IMG/VR virus record: IMGVR_UViG_3300024520_000114
Span: 1 to 48,780 of that record
DNA: 48,780 bases
Source: a virus
Strand: one strand, 5' to 3'
Shown: positions 659 through 48,780 of the stretch, piece by piece
Numbering within the stretch: the first letter of the stretch is position 1
Layout of the letters: the number at the start of each line of letters is the position of its first letter
Program-made: the position numbers and the translations under genes
The notes under the pieces: generated by a model
Seen by the model: only the letters and a program-made list of their open reading frames with translations
The model's database searches: none
Told to the model about the DNA's origin: nothing

Positions 659-662
659 GGTG

Positions 663-1013
663 GTGAACCTGAAAGAGGTACGAAAGAAAGTTGGGATAAC
701 TCAAGTTGAGTTGGCGCGGCGGGTTGGGTGCGGCAGGGCGTATTTGTGCAATATCGAGAAGGAATATCCAGAGGATAAGCGGCCGAGAAAAGCGATAAAC
801 GCAGCCAGAGCATGGTTGGAAAATGATTCAGTGGAAACCCGTAAGGCCGCGGCCTATGCCGCTGCCGCTGCCTCTGCCGCTGCCGCTGCCGCTGCCTATG
901 CCGCTGCCGCTGCCTCTGCCGCTGCCGCTGCCGCTGCCGATGCCGCTATGTTGGTTTCGATTCTGGAATATGGTTTGAAGCTGTTGGCGAGTGATAGGGA
1001 TTGCGACGGATAG
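663..1013 (+). CDS. XRE-type HTH protein with Ala-X dipeptide repeat
   Basis: This encodes 116 residues. GTG 663 is preferred to GTG 660 because AGGAGG at 650-655 is too close to 660. Residues 1 to about 50 form an XRE/Cro-type helix-turn-helix (EVRKKVGITQVELARRVG, then YLCNIEKE), so DNA binding is likely. Residues of about 62-95 are a low-complexity array in which Ala alternates with Ala, Ser, Tyr or Asp. The tail returns to ordinary sequence (LVSILEYGLKLL). The repeat DNA is annotated separately. A regulator carrying this type of repeat is unusual. The repeat may form a long helix or an oligomerisation segment, which is inference. Confidence 0.75.
   Translation: MNLKEVRKKVGITQVELARRVGCGRAYLCNIEKEYPEDKRPRKAINAARAWLENDSVETRKAAAYAAAAASAAAAAAAYAAAAASAAAAAAADAAMLVSILEYGLKLLASDRDCDG
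846..947 (+). repeat. Hexanucleotide coding array GCC-KMT, 17 units
   Basis: Seventeen consecutive 6-nt units each begin with GCC (Ala). The second codon is GCT, TCT, TAT or GAT in every unit except the first, which has GCG. The variable codon is therefore (G/T)(C/A)T, and all four combinations occur (Ala, Ser, Tyr, Asp). A perfect 42-bp higher-order duplication is visible (855-896 and 897-938). This suggests growth by unequal exchange or slippage. The same logic appears with Gly at the other end of the window (48661-48780). Confidence 0.95.
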
Positions 1014-30251: not shown

Positions 30252-30556
30252 AGAATCAGCTTGAGCATATCGCTGAACTGATTTCATTCGTCTATACTCA
30301 CGGCAAGGAACCTCTGGAGACTCTCGTTACTCAGTGGTCAGTCGTGAAGTTGGGAACTATAGCAGAGAAGATAGCTGATCGGTTACTTCCTAAAGGCAAG
30401 CGTAAGGCTAAAAAAACAGACGAATACGAATCAAGCAGAACAGAGCGGCGCGAGGGCGACAAGACGCATACCAAGACGTTCATCAGTTTCAAGGATATGT
30501 TCAAGAAAGCCAAAGAAGGTCGTAATACTACCATAACACAGCGCGGGAGGTTGTAA
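29754..30556 (+). CDS. Tail assembly chaperone, -1 frameshifted long form
   Basis: Shifting by -1 after Lys160 at GGAAAAG (30227-30233) gives a protein of about 267 residues whose added part starts VGPYTLENQLEHIAELISF. This extension has no start codon with a ribosome binding site and stays open to the TAA at 30554-30556, which overlaps the tape measure start. Its ending is basic (KGKRKAKKTDEYESSRTE). The G/GT arrangement with a fixed ratio is conserved across long-tailed phages, which supports the fusion. The zero-frame stop is at 30249-30251. Confidence 0.7.
30227..30233 (+). promoter_or_regulatory. Probable -1 frameshift site GGAAAAG
   Basis: In the zero frame this reads G-GAA-AAG and can re-pair as GGA-AAA-G. 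The A-AAG part is a recognised slippery element for lysine tRNA. It lies 18 bases before the zero-frame stop (TAG 30249-30251), inside the only overlap where both frames are open. Confidence 0.6.
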
Positions 30557-33500
30557 TGTCCGCAGGATTAGGCAGTCTCGGAACGCTTGGGTCGCTCAGA
30601 GTCAACCTTGTTATGCCTACGAAGGGCTTTGAGAAGGACGTTAAATCGGCGGATAAAACTCTGGCCGGATTCGAGACTACAACGGGGAAGCGGACGAAGG
30701 CGATCAACGCCGGACTTTTGGGTGTAGGCGCCGCCGTTATTACAGGCGTAGCTCTTGCCACTAGGCACTTTGGCAATTTCGAGAAGTCGATGAAGAACGT
30801 GCAGGCTGTGTCAGGAGCTACGGCTGAAGAGTTTAACAGGCTGAAAGAATTTGCTATCGAAATGGGGTCAACGACCGCTTTCACCGCGAAGGAAGCTGGC
30901 GACGCCATGTATTTCCTTGCCAGCGCTGGGCTGAATGTTGCCGAACAGATGGCTACTACAGCAAGTGTTTTAGACCTCGCCGCAGCTACACAAGAAGAGC
31001 TTGCTTCTACCGCTAGTATAGTGGTCAATACTTTGTCAGGTTTTTCTCTTGAGGCAGAAGAGTCCCGCCGTGTAGCTGATGTATTTGCTAAGGCTATATC
31101 TACCAGCCAGGCTAGTATGGCAAAGCTGGGGGCGGGTATACCTGTTGTCGCTGCCACTATGCAGGATCTGGGCGTCCCGCTGGAGGCTACCGTAACGGGA
31201 TTATCCCTTTTATTTGACAAGGGGATACGGGCGGAGCGCGCCGCAACTGGCTTGCGTAACGCAATGAAGCGGCTAATTGATCCCACTGACGAAGCGAAGG
31301 ATGAGATCGCTCGGTTAGGATTGACTGTAGAAGAACTAGACCCGCGCACCAATAGTCTGGTAGATGTTATCGGGAAATTGGAACAGGCCGGTTTCGACAC
31401 CGCAGCCTCTATCAAGTTATTTGGCCTTGAAAATGACGCCATGAATTTGCTTGTAGCTACTGGCGCGGAGAAGTTCAGGGCATTCGAGTCTAGCCTCAGA
31501 GGTGCGGCAGGCGCAGCGGAGACGATGAAGGATGTGCAGCTTGATAGCTTGAGCGGCTCTATAACGCTCCTGACCTCTGCCGTCGATGGTTTCGTAATAT
31601 CCTTTGGAGAAACATTTGCACCTATTGTCAGGACTGCGGCCGAGGTGTTGACTGGACTTGTGACAAAGTTTAATAATCTGGGAGATACCACCAAAAGTAT
31701 TTTAGCATGGACTGTGGCTATCGGAGGTGTCGGGCTTGGCGCTGTTGGCGCGCTAGGTTTATTAGGCACAGCGATCCCGGCTGTAGTAGCAGGCTTTACA
31801 GCAATGGCGCCTTTACTAGTAGCCGCCGCCCCTTTACTGGTAGGTATGGTGGCGCTTGGCGCTGCGGCATGGGTAGTCAAACAGAATATGGAGGCGTTGA
31901 ATCCTGAACTTATAGAGTTCAACTCAACGGTTGGCGCAGCGGAAATCATAGAGAATAGAACATCCAAAGCTATCAAGCTAATTACAGATGAGCTTCAGCG
32001 ATTAAAAGGTCTGGGTATTGACACTGTTGATTTACAAGTCAGCGATTTAGATATTAGCATGTCAAATTTGCAGGCAACGATCAATGATGAAGGTGGTGTA
32101 TGGGATAAATTAATCAATAAGATCACTGGCACAAAGACTGAAGTTGGCCTTTTAATCACGCCCACCACAAGCGTCAATACATTGTTAGGCGCTCTTGAAA
32201 AACATGCGGGGAAAGCCGCTACGACAATAGATGAATTAAAGACTGGCGTTACTGATGTCAAACAGCCAACAGAAGATGCGGCGGCAGTGACAGAAGATTA
32301 TGATACTAAACTTGCAAAATTACCGACTACGATGGATACATTCACTAACAGATTTAATACTCTGGCGACTGATACAGCTACTAATTCTCAGGCTATAATT
32401 CGAGATACAAGCGAAGCGACTACCCAGGTGATTGAAGGTTGGGGAGAAATACCTCTTGCTGCGGAAGAATCTACCGAGAAGGAATTAGCCATAACAAAAG
32501 ACCATATAGCGGATATGCGTACAGAACGTGACAGGGCAGCCATTGATGAGATTAGGGATGAGACGGCGCTAAGTGGTAAGAAGATAAATATACAAGCAGG
32601 CGAATTTGAGGCGCGGACTAAAATAGTTGACGACGAAAACAGGCTCATGATGACGTCAACAGACGAACAGATAATACAGGCTGACAGATTGGCGGAAGGG
32701 AAAATTGATGCTCGCGAAAAGGATGAAAAAGCATTTCAAACATATATAGACACGATAGTAACATTCCAGGCTACTGAGTTAGACAGCTACGAGGCGCAGA
32801 AACAATTGCTGAATATCGAATTTGATGATAGAGTGGCGCAATTCGCAGAGTTCGGTATAGACACTACAGAGCTTGAAAGAAAACGCCGCGAGGAGCTATT
32901 TGTTATCCGCTCTGGGGTATGGACGGATTTCGCAGGGAGAGTATCTGGTGGGTTCAACAATATTAATACTCTATATAACGCTATAAGAGGTGACCAGGAT
33001 AATTTCCATGAGACGTGGCTTTCGAGAATGACTGACTGGGCAACAAGAATTAAAGGCATACTGGATGGCGTGGTGACCTTGTGGCAAGACGCATCTAGCA
33101 TCATCAGCGGGATCGCCGGAATTATCGGTGGCGACGATGGCGGCGGTTTAAATCTGTCCGGGCTAGGCAGCATAGGCGGCGGTGGCGACTCCATCGCTGA
33201 TTTTGTCGGACCACCGGCTCCGAGCGCTGATTTTGTCGGACCACCGGCTCCGGGCGGTGATGCGGTCGGCGGGAATGGTTCTGCATTGGGTGACGTAGCG
33301 GGCGCTTTATCACTCGCAGCTTTCGCTACTGGCTTCCTGGATGCAGTGAATTTAACGCCGCAACAACTTAATGCTGACGGAACTTTACCAGCAGATGTTA
33401 GGGCGACGTTAGTTTTTCTACAGGGTGAAGAAATAGTGCGTGGCTTTGAGGAAAACTTAGCGGAACAGATCAGAGCTGCGGAACTGTCCGTAAGGGTCGG

Positions 33501-33672
33501 CTTGCCTACGGAGGATGTTTTCGCCGATCCCGAAGCGTTGGAAATACTAATCAGAATAGCGAACACGTTAGAGAATCCGCAAGTAGCCACTAATCCTGTT
33601 ACTACAGCGCAACTGCTCCAGGCGGTAGTTGATTTGATCCTGCCGGAACTTCAAGAATCGGGTGTACTATAA
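30556..33672 (+). CDS. Tail tape measure protein
   Basis: This encodes 1038 residues, starting at TAATG after the chaperone. Residues 60-260 match the TP901/PhageMin tail tape measure region (VQAVSGATAEEFNRLKEFAI, TAFTAKEAGDAMYFLASAGL, VAATMQDLGVPL). Hydrophobic helices near 375-440 (ILAWTVAIGGVGLGAVGALG, MAPLLVAAAPLLVG) and helical stretches around 640-760 are present. It sets tail length (about 0.15 nm per residue gives roughly 150 nm, an inference). A Gly/Pro-rich segment near 880 contains a 30-bp tandem repeat. It overlaps the next gene by one base. Confidence 0.95.
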   Translation: MSAGLGSLGTLGSLRVNLVMPTKGFEKDVKSADKTLAGFETTTGKRTKAINAGLLGVGAAVITGVALATRHFGNFEKSMKNVQAVSGATAEEFNRLKEFAIEMGSTTAFTAKEAGDAMYFLASAGLNVAEQMATTASVLDLAAATQEELASTASIVVNTLSGFSLEAEESRRVADVFAKAISTSQASMAKLGAGIPVVAATMQDLGVPLEATVTGLSLLFDKGIRAERAATGLRNAMKRLIDPTDEAKDEIARLGLTVEELDPRTNSLVDVIGKLEQAGFDTAASIKLFGLENDAMNLLVATGAEKFRAFESSLRGAAGAAETMKDVQLDSLSGSITLLTSAVDGFVISFGETFAPIVRTAAEVLTGLVTKFNNLGDTTKSILAWTVAIGGVGLGAVGALGLLGTAIPAVVAGFTAMAPLLVAAAPLLVGMVALGAAAWVVKQNMEALNPELIEFNSTVGAAEIIENRTSKAIKLITDELQRLKGLGIDTVDLQVSDLDISMSNLQATINDEGGVWDKLINKITGTKTEVGLLITPTTSVNTLLGALEKHAGKAATTIDELKTGVTDVKQPTEDAAAVTEDYDTKLAKLPTTMDTFTNRFNTLATDTATNSQAIIRDTSEATTQVIEGWGEIPLAAEESTEKELAITKDHIADMRTERDRAAIDEIRDETALSGKKINIQAGEFEARTKIVDDENRLMMTSTDEQIIQADRLAEGKIDAREKDEKAFQTYIDTIVTFQATELDSYEAQKQLLNIEFDDRVAQFAEFGIDTTELERKRREELFVIRSGVWTDFAGRVSGGFNNINTLYNAIRGDQDNFHETWLSRMTDWATRIKGILDGVVTLWQDASSIISGIAGIIGGDDGGGLNLSGLGSIGGGGDSIADFVGPPAPSADFVGPPAPGGDAVGGNGSALGDVAGALSLAAFATGFLDAVNLTPQQLNADGTLPADVRATLVFLQGEEIVRGFEENLAEQIRAAELSVRVGLPTEDVFADPEALEILIRIANTLENPQVATNPVTTAQLLQAVVDLILPELQESGVL
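33195..33252 (+). repeat. Tandem 30-bp repeat in the tape measure gene
   Basis: A 28-bp identical block (starting CGCTGATTTTGTCGG) occurs at 33195-33222 and again at 33225-33252, period 30. It encodes two copies of ADFVGPPAP. The repeat is in the flexible Gly/Pro-rich zone, so copy number may vary without loss of function. Confidence 0.9.
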
Positions 33673-44113: not shown

Positions 44114-44455
44114 ATGGACGATCTACAGACACTTAACGCAGCACTGGACAAATTGATCAAACTAAGGCGAAAGGAATCGAGAAACCATAGCGACGAAGTG
44201 TTGGAACTGATGCGTGAAAAAGAGCGTTGGCGCCAAGAGACGTTGAGTCTCAGGGAGGAGAAGGCGGCGACTGATAACAAATGGAAAGCGGCTCCTCAAA
44301 AGATGCTGGACAAGCGGCATATCGAGAATGAGAAAGTCGCTCAGTTATTCCGCGACCATCTTGACGACAGCGCAAACGATATGGAAAATGATAATGAATG
44401 GGAGCAGGAAGCCCGGAAGATCACATGGAATGACGAGGATGTGAGATCATTATGA
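44114..44455 (+). CDS. Coiled-coil protein upstream of the exonuclease
   Basis: This encodes 113 residues behind AGAGGAGAAACAA. It is highly charged and helical (LDKLIKLRRKESRNHSDEVL, then REKERWRQETLSLREEKAAT), with an acidic tail (DENDNEWEQEARKITW-like). It overlaps the exonuclease by four bases, so it may be a partner of the recombination enzymes. No known domain. Confidence 0.6.
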   Translation: MDDLQTLNAALDKLIKLRRKESRNHSDEVLELMREKERWRQETLSLREEKAATDNKWKAAPQKMLDKRHIENEKVAQLFRDHLDDSANDMENDNEWEQEARKITWNDEDVRSL

Positions 44456-45219
44456 ACATCCAGACACTATCGCCCTCGATGGTCAACGCGTTCAGGAAGT
44501 GCTCGCGACAGTTCTACTACCGATATGTAGAGCAGCTCCCGACGCCTTCCAATTATTTCCTTGCGTTCGGGTCCAGCTTCCACAGGACGGTTGAGGAAAA
44601 CTATTACCAGAAAGTGCAATCCTCTAAAGACCTTCCGCTGGATCTTCTCCAGGATTTCTTTGTGGAGGATCTGGAATCCCAGGACGATGTAGAATGGAAC
44701 GGAACGACGCTCTCTGAAGCTAAAGACGAAGGCGTTGTAACCGTCGAGGCATATCAGCGGAAGGTCGCTGCTGTGACGTATCCTCAGCTTGTGGAACACG
44801 CCTGGATAATGGAGATCAGGAATCGCCCGTATAACATCCGCGGGAAGATCGACCTGATAACCACTGACGATCTAGTAATAGACACCAAGACCACAGGCAA
44901 GCGGGTGAACAAACCGAAGCCTGATCATGAATTCCAGGTGAAGACTTACGCTGCGGCGTGGAAGGCTCAGACGGGACTCCCCACAGTGAGCGGCAGGCTT
45001 GATTATGGCCTCCGGGGAAAAGACGAGATTTACTCTCATCCGCTTGAATTCTCAGAGACCATGACCCAGGACGTGTTAAACGAGTTTGACGATGTGGCGA
45101 AGTGGATCCAACGTGAGGCATGGGTTCCACACAGGCAAGGGAATTTTCTTTGTAGCCACAAATACTGTGACTACGCGAATGCGTGCGAAAAGGACTGCGG
45201 AGGCGTGGTCAAACCATAG
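44452..45219 (+). CDS. PD-(D/E)XK exonuclease with Fe-S cysteines
   Basis: This encodes 255 residues. It is a RecB/Cas4/AddB-type nuclease: SSFHRTVEEN (His44), GKIDLI (Asp134), VIDTKTTG (Asp144, Lys146) and the helical QVKTYAAAW (Gln162, Tyr166). Cys17 together with Cys234, Cys239 and Cys245 (plus Cys249) suits a 4Fe-4S cluster as in Cas4 and AddB. It would degrade one strand to make the single-stranded substrate for RecT, which lies directly downstream. The pair is a phage homologous recombination system. Confidence 0.9.
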   Translation: MNIQTLSPSMVNAFRKCSRQFYYRYVEQLPTPSNYFLAFGSSFHRTVEENYYQKVQSSKDLPLDLLQDFFVEDLESQDDVEWNGTTLSEAKDEGVVTVEAYQRKVAAVTYPQLVEHAWIMEIRNRPYNIRGKIDLITTDDLVIDTKTTGKRVNKPKPDHEFQVKTYAAAWKAQTGLPTVSGRLDYGLRGKDEIYSHPLEFSETMTQDVLNEFDDVAKWIQREAWVPHRQGNFLCSHKYCDYANACEKDCGGVVKP

Positions 45220-45231
45220 AGGAGAAAGTCA

Positions 45232-47328
45232 ATGACACAGGAAAGAACGGAGAGCAAGCAGACACTTGAGATCGAAGAGCAGGAACAGGAGAGCGCCCTT
45301 GATGCTCTTTTGCGGAAGGTGGACATCAATGATCCGCTGGAAATAAAAGACCACGCGGGGAACATTGTGGAAGTGTCTCAAGAGAAGTTCATGGAATATT
45401 ACATGCCGCAAGGCACTTCAAAAAGCGATGCCTTCCATTGTATGCAGGCGGTACGCGGAACGGGCTTGAGTCTATTCGCTCCTGGTGAATGTTACTTCTT
45501 CAAGACAGGCGGCGGCCCTGTGAAACTGTTTACAGGATACACAGCATATTTACGGAAAGCGTACGCGGCCGGATTGGAACATATCGAAAAGCCTGTTCTA
45601 GATTTCGCAAACGACGCGGCCGGGTATCCAGTATCATGCACGATCACGATCCACATTACAGACAGGGAAAACATGGAATGGACAACGTGGTTCGCTGAGG
45701 TTGCAGGGAAGCAGGGCAACGCGTTAAACTCCAGATGGCTGAAGGCCCCAATCCAGATGCTGATCAAGTGCGCTATCGTGAATATTCTGCGACTCTCCGG
45801 GCTGGTAGATTTCACGATGCCATACACGGTTGACGAGATGGACGATCCGACAGTACCGGGATTTCGCACACTAACGCAACCACAACTGGACGGATACGAA
45901 GAACAGCAGGAAGCCCCGGAGGTGGGCAAGGTATCAGCGACACATCACCAGAATTTTGATTTCCGTCCATGTCATAAGCAATATAGAGGAATGCTTAATG
46001 AAAACAGTCCGTTTAAGGATGACGCCCAGCGGAAATTGTGGCAAGAGTCTGAGACAGGCAAAGCATCAAGCGCTGATTTCGGTTTAAGTGAATGGCTCAA
46101 CATACTGAGTGCATACAAAGATGGCGCTGCTCATAAATGGGTTGAATCTCAGAAGCCCGAACCAGATCCGCCAGGGGGAGGCGGACTTGCAGATCAACCT
46201 CGATACCATAAAGATAAGCCTGGGGAGATGATCGGCGCGAAGACTGCGGAAGAACTGAAGGACGCTGATGACAATAGTGATTTCGATCCTGAGACCGAGC
46301 CGGTCGATGGGATGTCACTAGAAGCACAGGACGAAGAGGCGGCGTCACGAGCTGCCTTCCAGGAAGCCCAGCAAGCTGAACGGGAGAAACTACGCGATCA
46401 ATTCATGAAGATGTTGATCGTGGTATTCCCGAATCAGGAAGACCGCTACAAGTGGATCGCTAATAATATAGGGCTTCCTGTGAACGGGATCGACATCTGG
46501 GGGATTACTTATTACGAGCAGGGGATAGACTTACTGGGCGCCCTTCAGAGCGGCGCCGGCAATGCCGAAGGGGGAGAAGGTAGCCAGGAGCCAGAGAAAG
46601 GGCAGGAAGGCGCAACGGAGCCAGCGGAACGGAAGATAACGAACGCAACTAAAAGCAAACTGGGGCGCTTAGTGAGGGAATGGCCGGAAACCCCATACAC
46701 CCAGACGATCAAAACACAGACGTTCAAAAAGAGAGCGGAGAAAGACATCGGCCCATACGACGATATAAACAATATCACAGAGGTGCAAGGGTTGGAGCTA
46801 CTAGCTTCGCTGAGCGTTGAACTCGCGGAAATTACAGGCGAAATCGTAGATGATGATCCTTTGGGCGTTAATTTCCTCGGACCCGACATCCCGTGGATTC
46901 AGCAGTTCAAGGACAAAGCGGTTCTCCGGTTTACTCCGGCGGATTCGTCCAAGTTTGTGGAGTGGAAGCGCTACAACGACCTTGATGGTGTAAAGGTTGA
47001 CGAGTGGGACGACGACACAGCCAAACGCGGTATCGCACTTCTGGAAGGTGTACCTTTGCTGGAGTCGGCGCAAGAGGAGTTTATCAACCAGGGACAGCGG
47101 GACCAGATCGACAAGTTGCTCCCCGGTATGCCTGAACGGTTCCACGGTTCCACGGGTTCTGAGTCATTCCGTAACTTTGCAAAGACTATCAAGCCTGATT
47201 ATAATGGGTTGCCCGGACTGACCGAAGAAGAAGCATCAGACGTGATCCACCAGATGCAGGACATGGTTGAGACAGAGGGAATCAGGAAAGAGAAAGCGGT
47301 CGCGGATAGAGCGTCGATGTTCGAGTAA
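45232..47328 (+). CDS. recT: RecT-family annealing protein with long C-terminal extension
   Basis: This encodes 698 residues from ATG 45232 behind AGAGGAGAAAG. Residues 20-240 are the RecT/RedB core: EVSQEKFMEYYMPQG, FHCMQAVRGTGLSLF, FFKTGGGPVKLFTGYTAYLR and MLIKCAIVNILRLSG. After residue about 240 comes a very long extension with low-complexity linkers (PEPDPPGGGG, EGGEGSQEPE). At least two helical units resemble the C-terminal modules of phage annealing proteins: ITNATKSKLGRLVREWPE... and INQGQRDQIDKLLPGMPE..., both ending LxxLt..eA-type. It anneals single strands in phage DNA repair and recombination. The size is well above the usual 250-350. Confidence 0.9.
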   Translation: MTQERTESKQTLEIEEQEQESALDALLRKVDINDPLEIKDHAGNIVEVSQEKFMEYYMPQGTSKSDAFHCMQAVRGTGLSLFAPGECYFFKTGGGPVKLFTGYTAYLRKAYAAGLEHIEKPVLDFANDAAGYPVSCTITIHITDRENMEWTTWFAEVAGKQGNALNSRWLKAPIQMLIKCAIVNILRLSGLVDFTMPYTVDEMDDPTVPGFRTLTQPQLDGYEEQQEAPEVGKVSATHHQNFDFRPCHKQYRGMLNENSPFKDDAQRKLWQESETGKASSADFGLSEWLNILSAYKDGAAHKWVESQKPEPDPPGGGGLADQPRYHKDKPGEMIGAKTAEELKDADDNSDFDPETEPVDGMSLEAQDEEAASRAAFQEAQQAEREKLRDQFMKMLIVVFPNQEDRYKWIANNIGLPVNGIDIWGITYYEQGIDLLGALQSGAGNAEGGEGSQEPEKGQEGATEPAERKITNATKSKLGRLVREWPETPYTQTIKTQTFKKRAEKDIGPYDDINNITEVQGLELLASLSVELAEITGEIVDDDPLGVNFLGPDIPWIQQFKDKAVLRFTPADSSKFVEWKRYNDLDGVKVDEWDDDTAKRGIALLEGVPLLESAQEEFINQGQRDQIDKLLPGMPERFHGSTGSESFRNFAKTIKPDYNGLPGLTEEEASDVIHQMQDMVETEGIRKEKAVADRASMFE

Positions 47329-48289: not shown

Positions 48290-48646
48290 ATGGAAAAGGA
48301 AGTAAAGATCGATGGTGTTGTATATGTACCAAAGAATCAACCAGCGGACGATCTGGATGGCATGGAGTATAAGATAGTCCGCACTTATAGCGCTGGCGTA
48401 TTCGCTGGCTATATTGAGTCTCGTCAAAATAAAAATGTAACTATCAGGAACGCGCGGCGACTTTGGCGATGGGCCGGGGCGGCCAGCCTATCTCAGTTAG
48501 CTGCGGAAGGGACGAAAGATCCAGGCAATTGTAAATTCCCGACAGAAGTAGATAGAATCACAGTTACTGAAGCCATCGAGATCCTGGATGTTACGCGGAC
48601 GGCACAGGAATCAATAGCCGCTGTTCCGGTATGGGAGGAAAAATAA
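48290..48646 (+). CDS. DUF6948-type phage protein
   Basis: This encodes 118 residues from ATG 48290 behind ACAGGAGA. The conserved run YKIVRTYSAGVFAGYIESR, then NARRLWRWAGAASLSQLA and EGTKDPGNCKFP, matches the small phage family DUF6948, with the ending EAIEILDVT and VPVWE. Its function is unknown. It is directly followed by a Gly-X repeat protein whose start overlaps its stop. Confidence 0.8.
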   Translation: MEKEVKIDGVVYVPKNQPADDLDGMEYKIVRTYSAGVFAGYIESRQNKNVTIRNARRLWRWAGAASLSQLAAEGTKDPGNCKFPTEVDRITVTEAIEILDVTRTAQESIAAVPVWEEK

Positions 48647-48780
48647 TGGCAGAGGAAAAGTACGGTTCCGGTTCCGGTTCCGGTTCCGGTTACGGTGACG
48701 GTGACGGTTACGGTTACGGTTCCGGTTACGGTTACGGTGACGGTTACGGTTACGGTGACGGTGACGGTGACGGTTACGGT
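48646..48780 (+). CDS. Gly-X dipeptide repeat protein, 5' part
   Basis: ATG 48646 overlaps the previous stop (TAATG) with GGGAGG upstream. After MAEEK the visible 40 residues alternate Gly with Tyr, Ser or Asp only, and the frame continues past the window edge. There is no signal peptide. Such a chain would be disordered or weakly beta-like and could phase separate or bind surfaces, which is inference. The repeat DNA is described separately. Confidence 0.8.
   Translation, partial: MAEEKYGSGSGSGSGYGDGDGYGYGSGYGYGDGYGYGDGDGDGYG
48661..48780 (+). repeat. Hexanucleotide coding array KMC-GGT, 20 units to the edge
   Basis: Twenty units of 6 nt are visible, each made of TAC, TCC or GAC followed by GGT. 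The Gly codon never varies and the other codon is always (T/G)(A/C)C. Runs of like units suggest expansion by slippage. It mirrors the array at 846-947, which uses GCC plus (G/T)(C/A)T. Confidence 0.95.

Follow-up and report, generated by a model that had tools for sequence, protein, structure and literature searches.

The array of alternating glycine codons that closes the DNA analysed here (IMG/VR virus record IMGVR_UViG_3300024520_000114, 48,780 nucleotides, in the following called the window) belongs to a conserved phage module of two genes, of which it forms the 5' part of the second. The first gene encodes a protein of the DUF6948 family and the second a chain of Gly-X units, (Gly-X)n. 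Both form a near-obligate pair whose members overlap or directly abut. The module is apparently without previous description; among the papers searched for DUF6948, for Gly-Tyr peptides and for tandem repeats in phages, none dealt with it and none mentioned DUF6948.

Results

Positions 48661-48780 consist of exactly 20 hexamers of the form [TAC/TCC/GAC]GGT, of which TACGGT occurs nine, GACGGT six and TCCGGT five times. Glycine is encoded by GGT in 20 of 20 units and the codon of the variable residue X ends in C in 20 of 20, GCC, the fourth KMC codon, being absent. The Tandem Repeats Finder score of 163 lies far above chance. The frame is set by the ATG at 48646, which overlaps the stop codon of the DUF6948 gene in the sequence TAATG (Table 1). 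The first-pass annotation had described this hexamer rule, a DUF6948-type gene in front of the array and an array running past the window, and all three were confirmed. All hexamers obey the rule in frame, the upstream gene product scores 100.2 bits with the Pfam profile PF22253 (curated cut-off 27) and thus belongs to the family, and the contig stops within the array, so that the length of the window array is not readable. Elsewhere in the window, the tape-measure gene (30556-33672) contains a 30-nt tandem repeat at 33195-33269.

Table 1. Features of the window discussed in the text.
Feature	Position	Strand	Basis
Protein with the first (Ala) array; matches HTH_3 (N-terminus) and Imm5_like; regarded as having no relation to the module	660..1013	+	Pfam
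PD-(D/E)XK nuclease, context	44452..45219	+	Pfam PF12705, E 5.9e-24
RecT-family ssDNA-annealing protein, context outside the module	45232..47328	+	Pfam PF03837, E 3.7e-13
DUF6948 protein, 118 aa, predicted Sm/LSm-like small barrel	48290..48646	+	Pfam PF22253, E 7e-29; AlphaFold2; Foldseek/VIA
Likely ribosome-binding site GGGAGGA, 6 nt before ATG 48646	48633..48639	+	Read from the sequence
5' part of the array gene, product beginning MAEEK-YGSGSGSGSGYGDGDG; 3' end incomplete	48646..48780	+	Layout shared with 137 related arrays
(Gly-X)n array of 20 units, truncated where the contig stops	48661..48780	+	Hexamer count, Tandem Repeats Finder

The pairing was assessed with a DUF6948 profile search that is blind to arrays and yielded 82 viral genes, 46 genes in genomes and 15 in annotated phages. 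Of the 82 viral genes, 80 have an array behind them and two are truncated because their contig stops there. An array also lies behind 38 of the 46 genes in genomes (five of the remaining eight are truncated in the same way) and behind 14 of the 15 genes in annotated phages. Within the viral DUF6948 loci (80 loci, 430 kb), 107 GX runs follow DUF6948 and none lies elsewhere. A pattern scan of viral contigs for six GGTKMC units, itself ignorant of DUF6948, gave at least 120 hits; among the matches listed, most were short ORFs made up of a leader and a Gly-X array, and 58 loci had DUF6948 immediately upstream. The array gene starts within 20 nt of the DUF6948 stop codon in 132 of 137 cases, possesses an in-frame start in all 137, and is fused to DUF6948 in a single ORF in two loci (L060 and L107). 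As exceptions to the gene order, L124 and L134 carry the array ORF upstream of DUF6948. Typically the array gene comprises a short leader followed by 8-57 Gly-X units and, in some cases, a C-terminal domain.

Hundreds of phage contigs carry the pair, as do contigs that were binned with many groups of bacteria and some of archaea; cultured carriers include Iodobacter phage PhiPLPE, Chlorobiaceae phage CV-1-33 and the Pectobacterium Ymer group. Its genomic neighbours are early or recombination genes, namely RecT and a nuclease in the window and Erf, SSB, RecE/Bet, DnaB and NinB/NinG elsewhere. Fifteen of the 82 viral DUF6948 contigs end within 300 nt past the gene, compared to one in each of the next two 300-nt bins; the frequent breaking of phage assemblies at the array gene is thus explained by the array. 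Some loci are of a different make-up. One phage contig (L216:1015-2415) encodes, shortly upstream of DUF6948, a protein with TROVE and Ro60 vWA domains (Ro60-type, RNA-binding), which is a single case. Five GX-array genes follow one another in L386:1719-2850 and four in L302. A second GX family of the form M[TN][EY]..YPV-(GX)n-ISTRTRRR occurs as tandem paralogs in L086 (four) and L094 (three) and also in L119 and L100; DUF6948 was not detected in these four loci.

To describe the DUF6948 protein, its structure was predicted with AlphaFold2 using 52 relatives, 30 of which match PHROG 18306. The model is a confident small barrel (pLDDT 93) with the five-stranded fold of Sm/LSm proteins. Nearly all of the best 50 PDB rows obtained with Foldseek and VIA are Sm/LSm proteins, including the Sm/LSm-like metagenomic protein 3by7. 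Foldseek reaches a best E of 6e-3 (prob 1.0), and VIA gives an rmsd of mostly 1.6-2.2 over 57-68 residues with Z values of 6-7, which are middling for a small barrel, since Z below 8 may mean merely a common arrangement. A GVxxGxL...A pattern in DUF6948 resembles Sm1, by eye only, and phmmer and profile searches of PDB sequences found no Sm protein. In view of these Z values and the missing sequence match, we therefore consider DUF6948 as Sm/LSm-like with respect to its predicted fold only and make no claim of membership for RNA binding. PADLOC and NCBIfam searches gave nothing convincing for DUF6948.

Residue usage at X was evaluated in 118 arrays of at least 8 units each, not chosen by codon and comprising 3073 units. 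Ser (0.37), Tyr (0.27) and Asp (0.22) predominate, followed by Asn (0.05), Phe (0.03) and His (0.01), and Ala makes up 0.6% of X. These proportions are alike in arrays of the GGC/C, GGC/T, GGT/C, GGG/C and GGT/T classes, the few GGA/C arrays being richer in Asn, and the constraint thus acts on the protein and not on the codon. Codon or translation optimisation of GGT/KMC was rejected, as much the same residues are encoded in other arrays with GGC, GGG or GGA and with codons ending in T. Within arrays, heterozygosity at the two silent sites is 0.084 and 0.079 (median 0), and that at the first and second base of the X codon is 0.454 and 0.475, which is near maximal. Both silent sites are uniform in 54 of the 118 arrays, X in none.

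The Ala codon is one step away from both the Ser and the Asp codons. Ala was observed 18 times at X, where 269 occurrences are expected from the position-wise base frequencies. This 15-fold deficit presupposes that the bases are independent and has merely indicative value if inheritance is by whole units. Seed units that were inherited without Ala could be part of the reason for its absence. An aromatic residue (His counted) is present in all 95 arrays of at least 15 units, and the spread of composition between arrays exceeds the binomial expectation. The restricted residue set that had been noted in the window is hence real, and, judged from sequence composition, it appears selected. Arrays contain acidic residues and almost no Arg or Lys, and therefore are not expected to bind nucleic acid themselves. 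In a survey of low-complexity regions of prokaryotes and phages, aromatic residues are heavily under-represented (PMC6821194), which makes a Tyr-rich class unusual.

The turnover of the arrays is best seen in the Pectobacterium phages Ymer and Amona, which overall are mosaics with about 92-96% identity. The DNA flanking the array gene, however, is identical in both over 1704 and 4058 nt on its two sides, and only the array differs, its gene measuring 222 nt in Ymer and 204 nt in Amona, with different order and composition of units. Array genes of their relatives range from 162 to 270 nt. Three contig pairs (L193/L194, L214/L217 and L147/L223) likewise combine identical upstream DNA with different arrays, although these are metagenome assemblies and thus less certain. 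Length and order thus vary strongly among near-identical phages, which supports the reading of the first-pass annotation, and the arrays are among the fastest-changing coding sequences seen in the present analysis. Unit order is near random, with identical neighbours depleted (0.89), and internal repeats are longer than in shuffled arrays in 21 of 95 cases. Minority Gly codons are coupled to the X codon next to them in the same unit (mutual information 4.77 compared to 1.78, sd 0.25, after shuffling) and rare silent variants cluster within arrays. Both observations speak for units that are copied and lost as a whole, rather than for X codons that mutate.

Some arrays run into one of two C-terminal domains, b (...FAHG...WH..LTGSC..G...) or c (...ALHAT..P.KWKGERLW...). 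Domain b has no significant Pfam match and, at an AlphaFold pLDDT of 95, no convincing match in the PDB; a single-protein scan with it returned its own contig only. Domain c has no match in Pfam or in annotated phages, and its sequence is present in 17 viral loci, nearly all with a preceding GX array. Loci with domain b (WH..LTGSC) are L335, L171:5557-6363, L023 and L101, where it is preceded by GX arrays, leucine-rich repeats (L335) or an ENSRVEAW repeat (L171). Since domain b also follows structured repeats, GX arrays may take the place of such repeats.

The window contains a second dipeptide array of another kind. At 846-947, GCC alternates with GCT, TAT, TCT or GAT, with one GCG, in line with its earlier description as GCC paired with KMT codons apart from this one exception. 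It belongs to a protein with HTH_3 at the N-terminus, followed by the Ala array itself, which matches Imm5_like (PF21805). From the presence of two arrays drawing on Tyr, Ser and Asp, the first-pass annotation had suggested a shared generating process or shared selection. This link was not supported, as Imm5_like occurs in only one of 50 viral DUF6948 contigs, and Ala arrays elsewhere use Arg, Gly, Thr, Gln, Leu and Pro besides Ser, Tyr and Asp. We thus rejected a common generating process on the same two grounds, and the Imm5_like family is not part of a common module with GX arrays. Scanning for (GCCNNN) and for (GGCNNN) amounts to one search on opposite strands. The true partner of the GX array is the gene in front of it and not the Ala array.

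Discussion

We favour, with a probability of roughly 45%, the explanation that a Sm-like phage protein is accompanied by a multivalent low-complexity partner rich in Tyr, Ser and Asp, the composition of which is selected while its order is turned over by unit copying. Two parts of this explanation differ in strength. Selection on composition combined with unit copying is likely. Hereby, whole hexamer units would be copied and lost by slippage or recombination, and this turnover probably homogenises the silent sites. Selection at the protein level would in turn maintain an aromatic residue, which is Tyr or, in part of the arrays, Phe or His, alongside the small polar residues Ser, Asp and Asn, and would reject Ala and Pro, leaving the order nearly free. 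That X remains heterogeneous is most simply explained by selection for a mixed palette. The functional step, i.e. that the array serves the Sm-like protein as a multivalent low-complexity partner, is more tentative. The Sm-like protein might be an RNA- or ssDNA-binding oligomer made in the early or recombination region, and the array might be its sticker-and-spacer partner, with Tyr as stickers and Gly, Ser and Asp as spacers, which could gather the Sm-like complex or its clients into an assembly. Dependence on composition and independence of order would be expected of low-complexity chains of this kind. The arrays possess the aromatic-sticker and Gly/Ser-spacer composition of phase-separating low-complexity proteins, and the array protein may form a condensate. 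Against the favoured explanation speak the middling VIA Z values and the missing Sm sequence match, the scarcity of Arg and Lys in the arrays, the deviations of unit order from randomness and the more than binomial spread of composition.

The main rival, which we regard as rather unlikely, is a hypervariable recognition or decoy array in which order matters too and which could bind or bait a changing host protein, e.g. a defence component. It would account for arrays that differ between phages with identical flanks and for the depletion of identical neighbours, and the occurrence of domain b behind the structured repeats of L335 and L171 is the best hint for such a role. Moreover, Tyr, Ser, Asp and Gly form the palette of minimal synthetic antibody loops, and KMT codons (Ala/Asp/Ser/Tyr) are used in antibody libraries (PMC3626704). 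Against recognition speak the lack of a convincing PADLOC match for DUF6948, the composition common to phages of very different hosts and the strict Gly alternation, which offers little structure for specific binding. A related, still less probable idea is that the hypervariable Gly-[Tyr/Ser/Asp] chain represents a standing binding repertoire, in which the multivalent surface displayed on a ring that binds RNA or ssDNA would differ from lineage to lineage, unit copying reshuffling a residue code like that of minimal antibodies. If true, phages would have a further route of protein diversification besides retroelements and phase variation.

A silk-like beta structure, with Gly on one face and Ser, Tyr and Asp on the other, stacking into beta-sheet fibres or a coat, would suit arrays of 8-57 units in which every second residue is Gly. 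Silkworm fibroin contains such Gly-X repeats, with X mainly Ala, Ser or Tyr. The GX arrays share the alternation, but Ala, a main X residue of such silk, is almost missing at X. In addition, the Asp residues, which make up 22% of X, would repel one another if sheets were stacked, and the alternation follows directly from the 6-nt repeat unit, which renders a silk-like structure improbable.

Targeted hypermutation of the X codon, e.g. by a retroelement-like diversifier or a transversion-specific mutator, would explain that mostly the first two X bases vary, mostly T/G and A/C, at fixed silent sites. However, a rare silent variant and its X codon move together as one unit, GGT does not change to G at its silent T, and the variation (T/G at base 1, A/C at base 2) is not limited to adenines, as diversity-generating retroelements would require; we thus give hypermutation very little weight. 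Specifically, a transversion mutator converting TAC to GAC, TCC and GCC by A:T to C:G changes was rejected, as the silent T of GGT is unaffected and Ala is missing. Equally slight is the chance that short reads scrambled the repeat and that the array differences between near-identical genomes are unreal. Phages of the Ymer genus were sequenced by Illumina 300-cycle chemistry and assembled with metaSPAdes (PMC11445585), and contigs often end in the array, but exact repeats within the Ymer and Amona arrays are 22-58 nt long, the arrays differ over most of their length and not through one collapse, and identical arrays recur in several records. A functionless, neutral by-product of hexamer slippage, suggested by tandem repeats of fast-changing length, is already contradicted by X being uniform in no array while about half are uniform at the silent sites, by the similar palette across codon classes, and by arrays that are tied to DUF6948, absent elsewhere in its loci and always provided with an in-frame start.

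The module represents a natural test of whether selection can see composition alone, and not order, in a low-complexity protein, and the array a phage minisatellite that is tractable in the laboratory.

Among known systems, the DUF6948 family is recorded in Pfam as a domain of unknown function; the family records consulted mention neither its near-obligate GX partner nor the predicted Sm-like fold nor any fusions. With the Sm/LSm superfamily (archaeal SmAP, Lsm1-7) DUF6948 shares the predicted fold, but it carries an additional C-terminal helix after the barrel, and no sequence similarity to these proteins was found in the PDB. The Imm5_like Ala arrays are likewise dipeptide arrays with one constant codon and occur in the same window, yet they reside in another gene with other family matches, and their X accepts many other residues. 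Bacterial VNTR or contingency loci resemble the GX arrays in that multiples of a short unit are gained and lost much faster than the flanking DNA changes; the 6-nt unit of the GX arrays, however, keeps the frame, so that the gene is not switched off, and amino-acid heterogeneity is retained while silent sites are homogenised. Eukaryotic low-complexity domains of the FUS/hnRNP type are chains rich in Gly with Tyr at intervals, and they are likewise linked to, or occur together with, a domain of a nucleic-acid-binding type. Compared to these, the GX arrays alternate strictly, lack Arg/RGG, usually form a separate gene and reside in phages.
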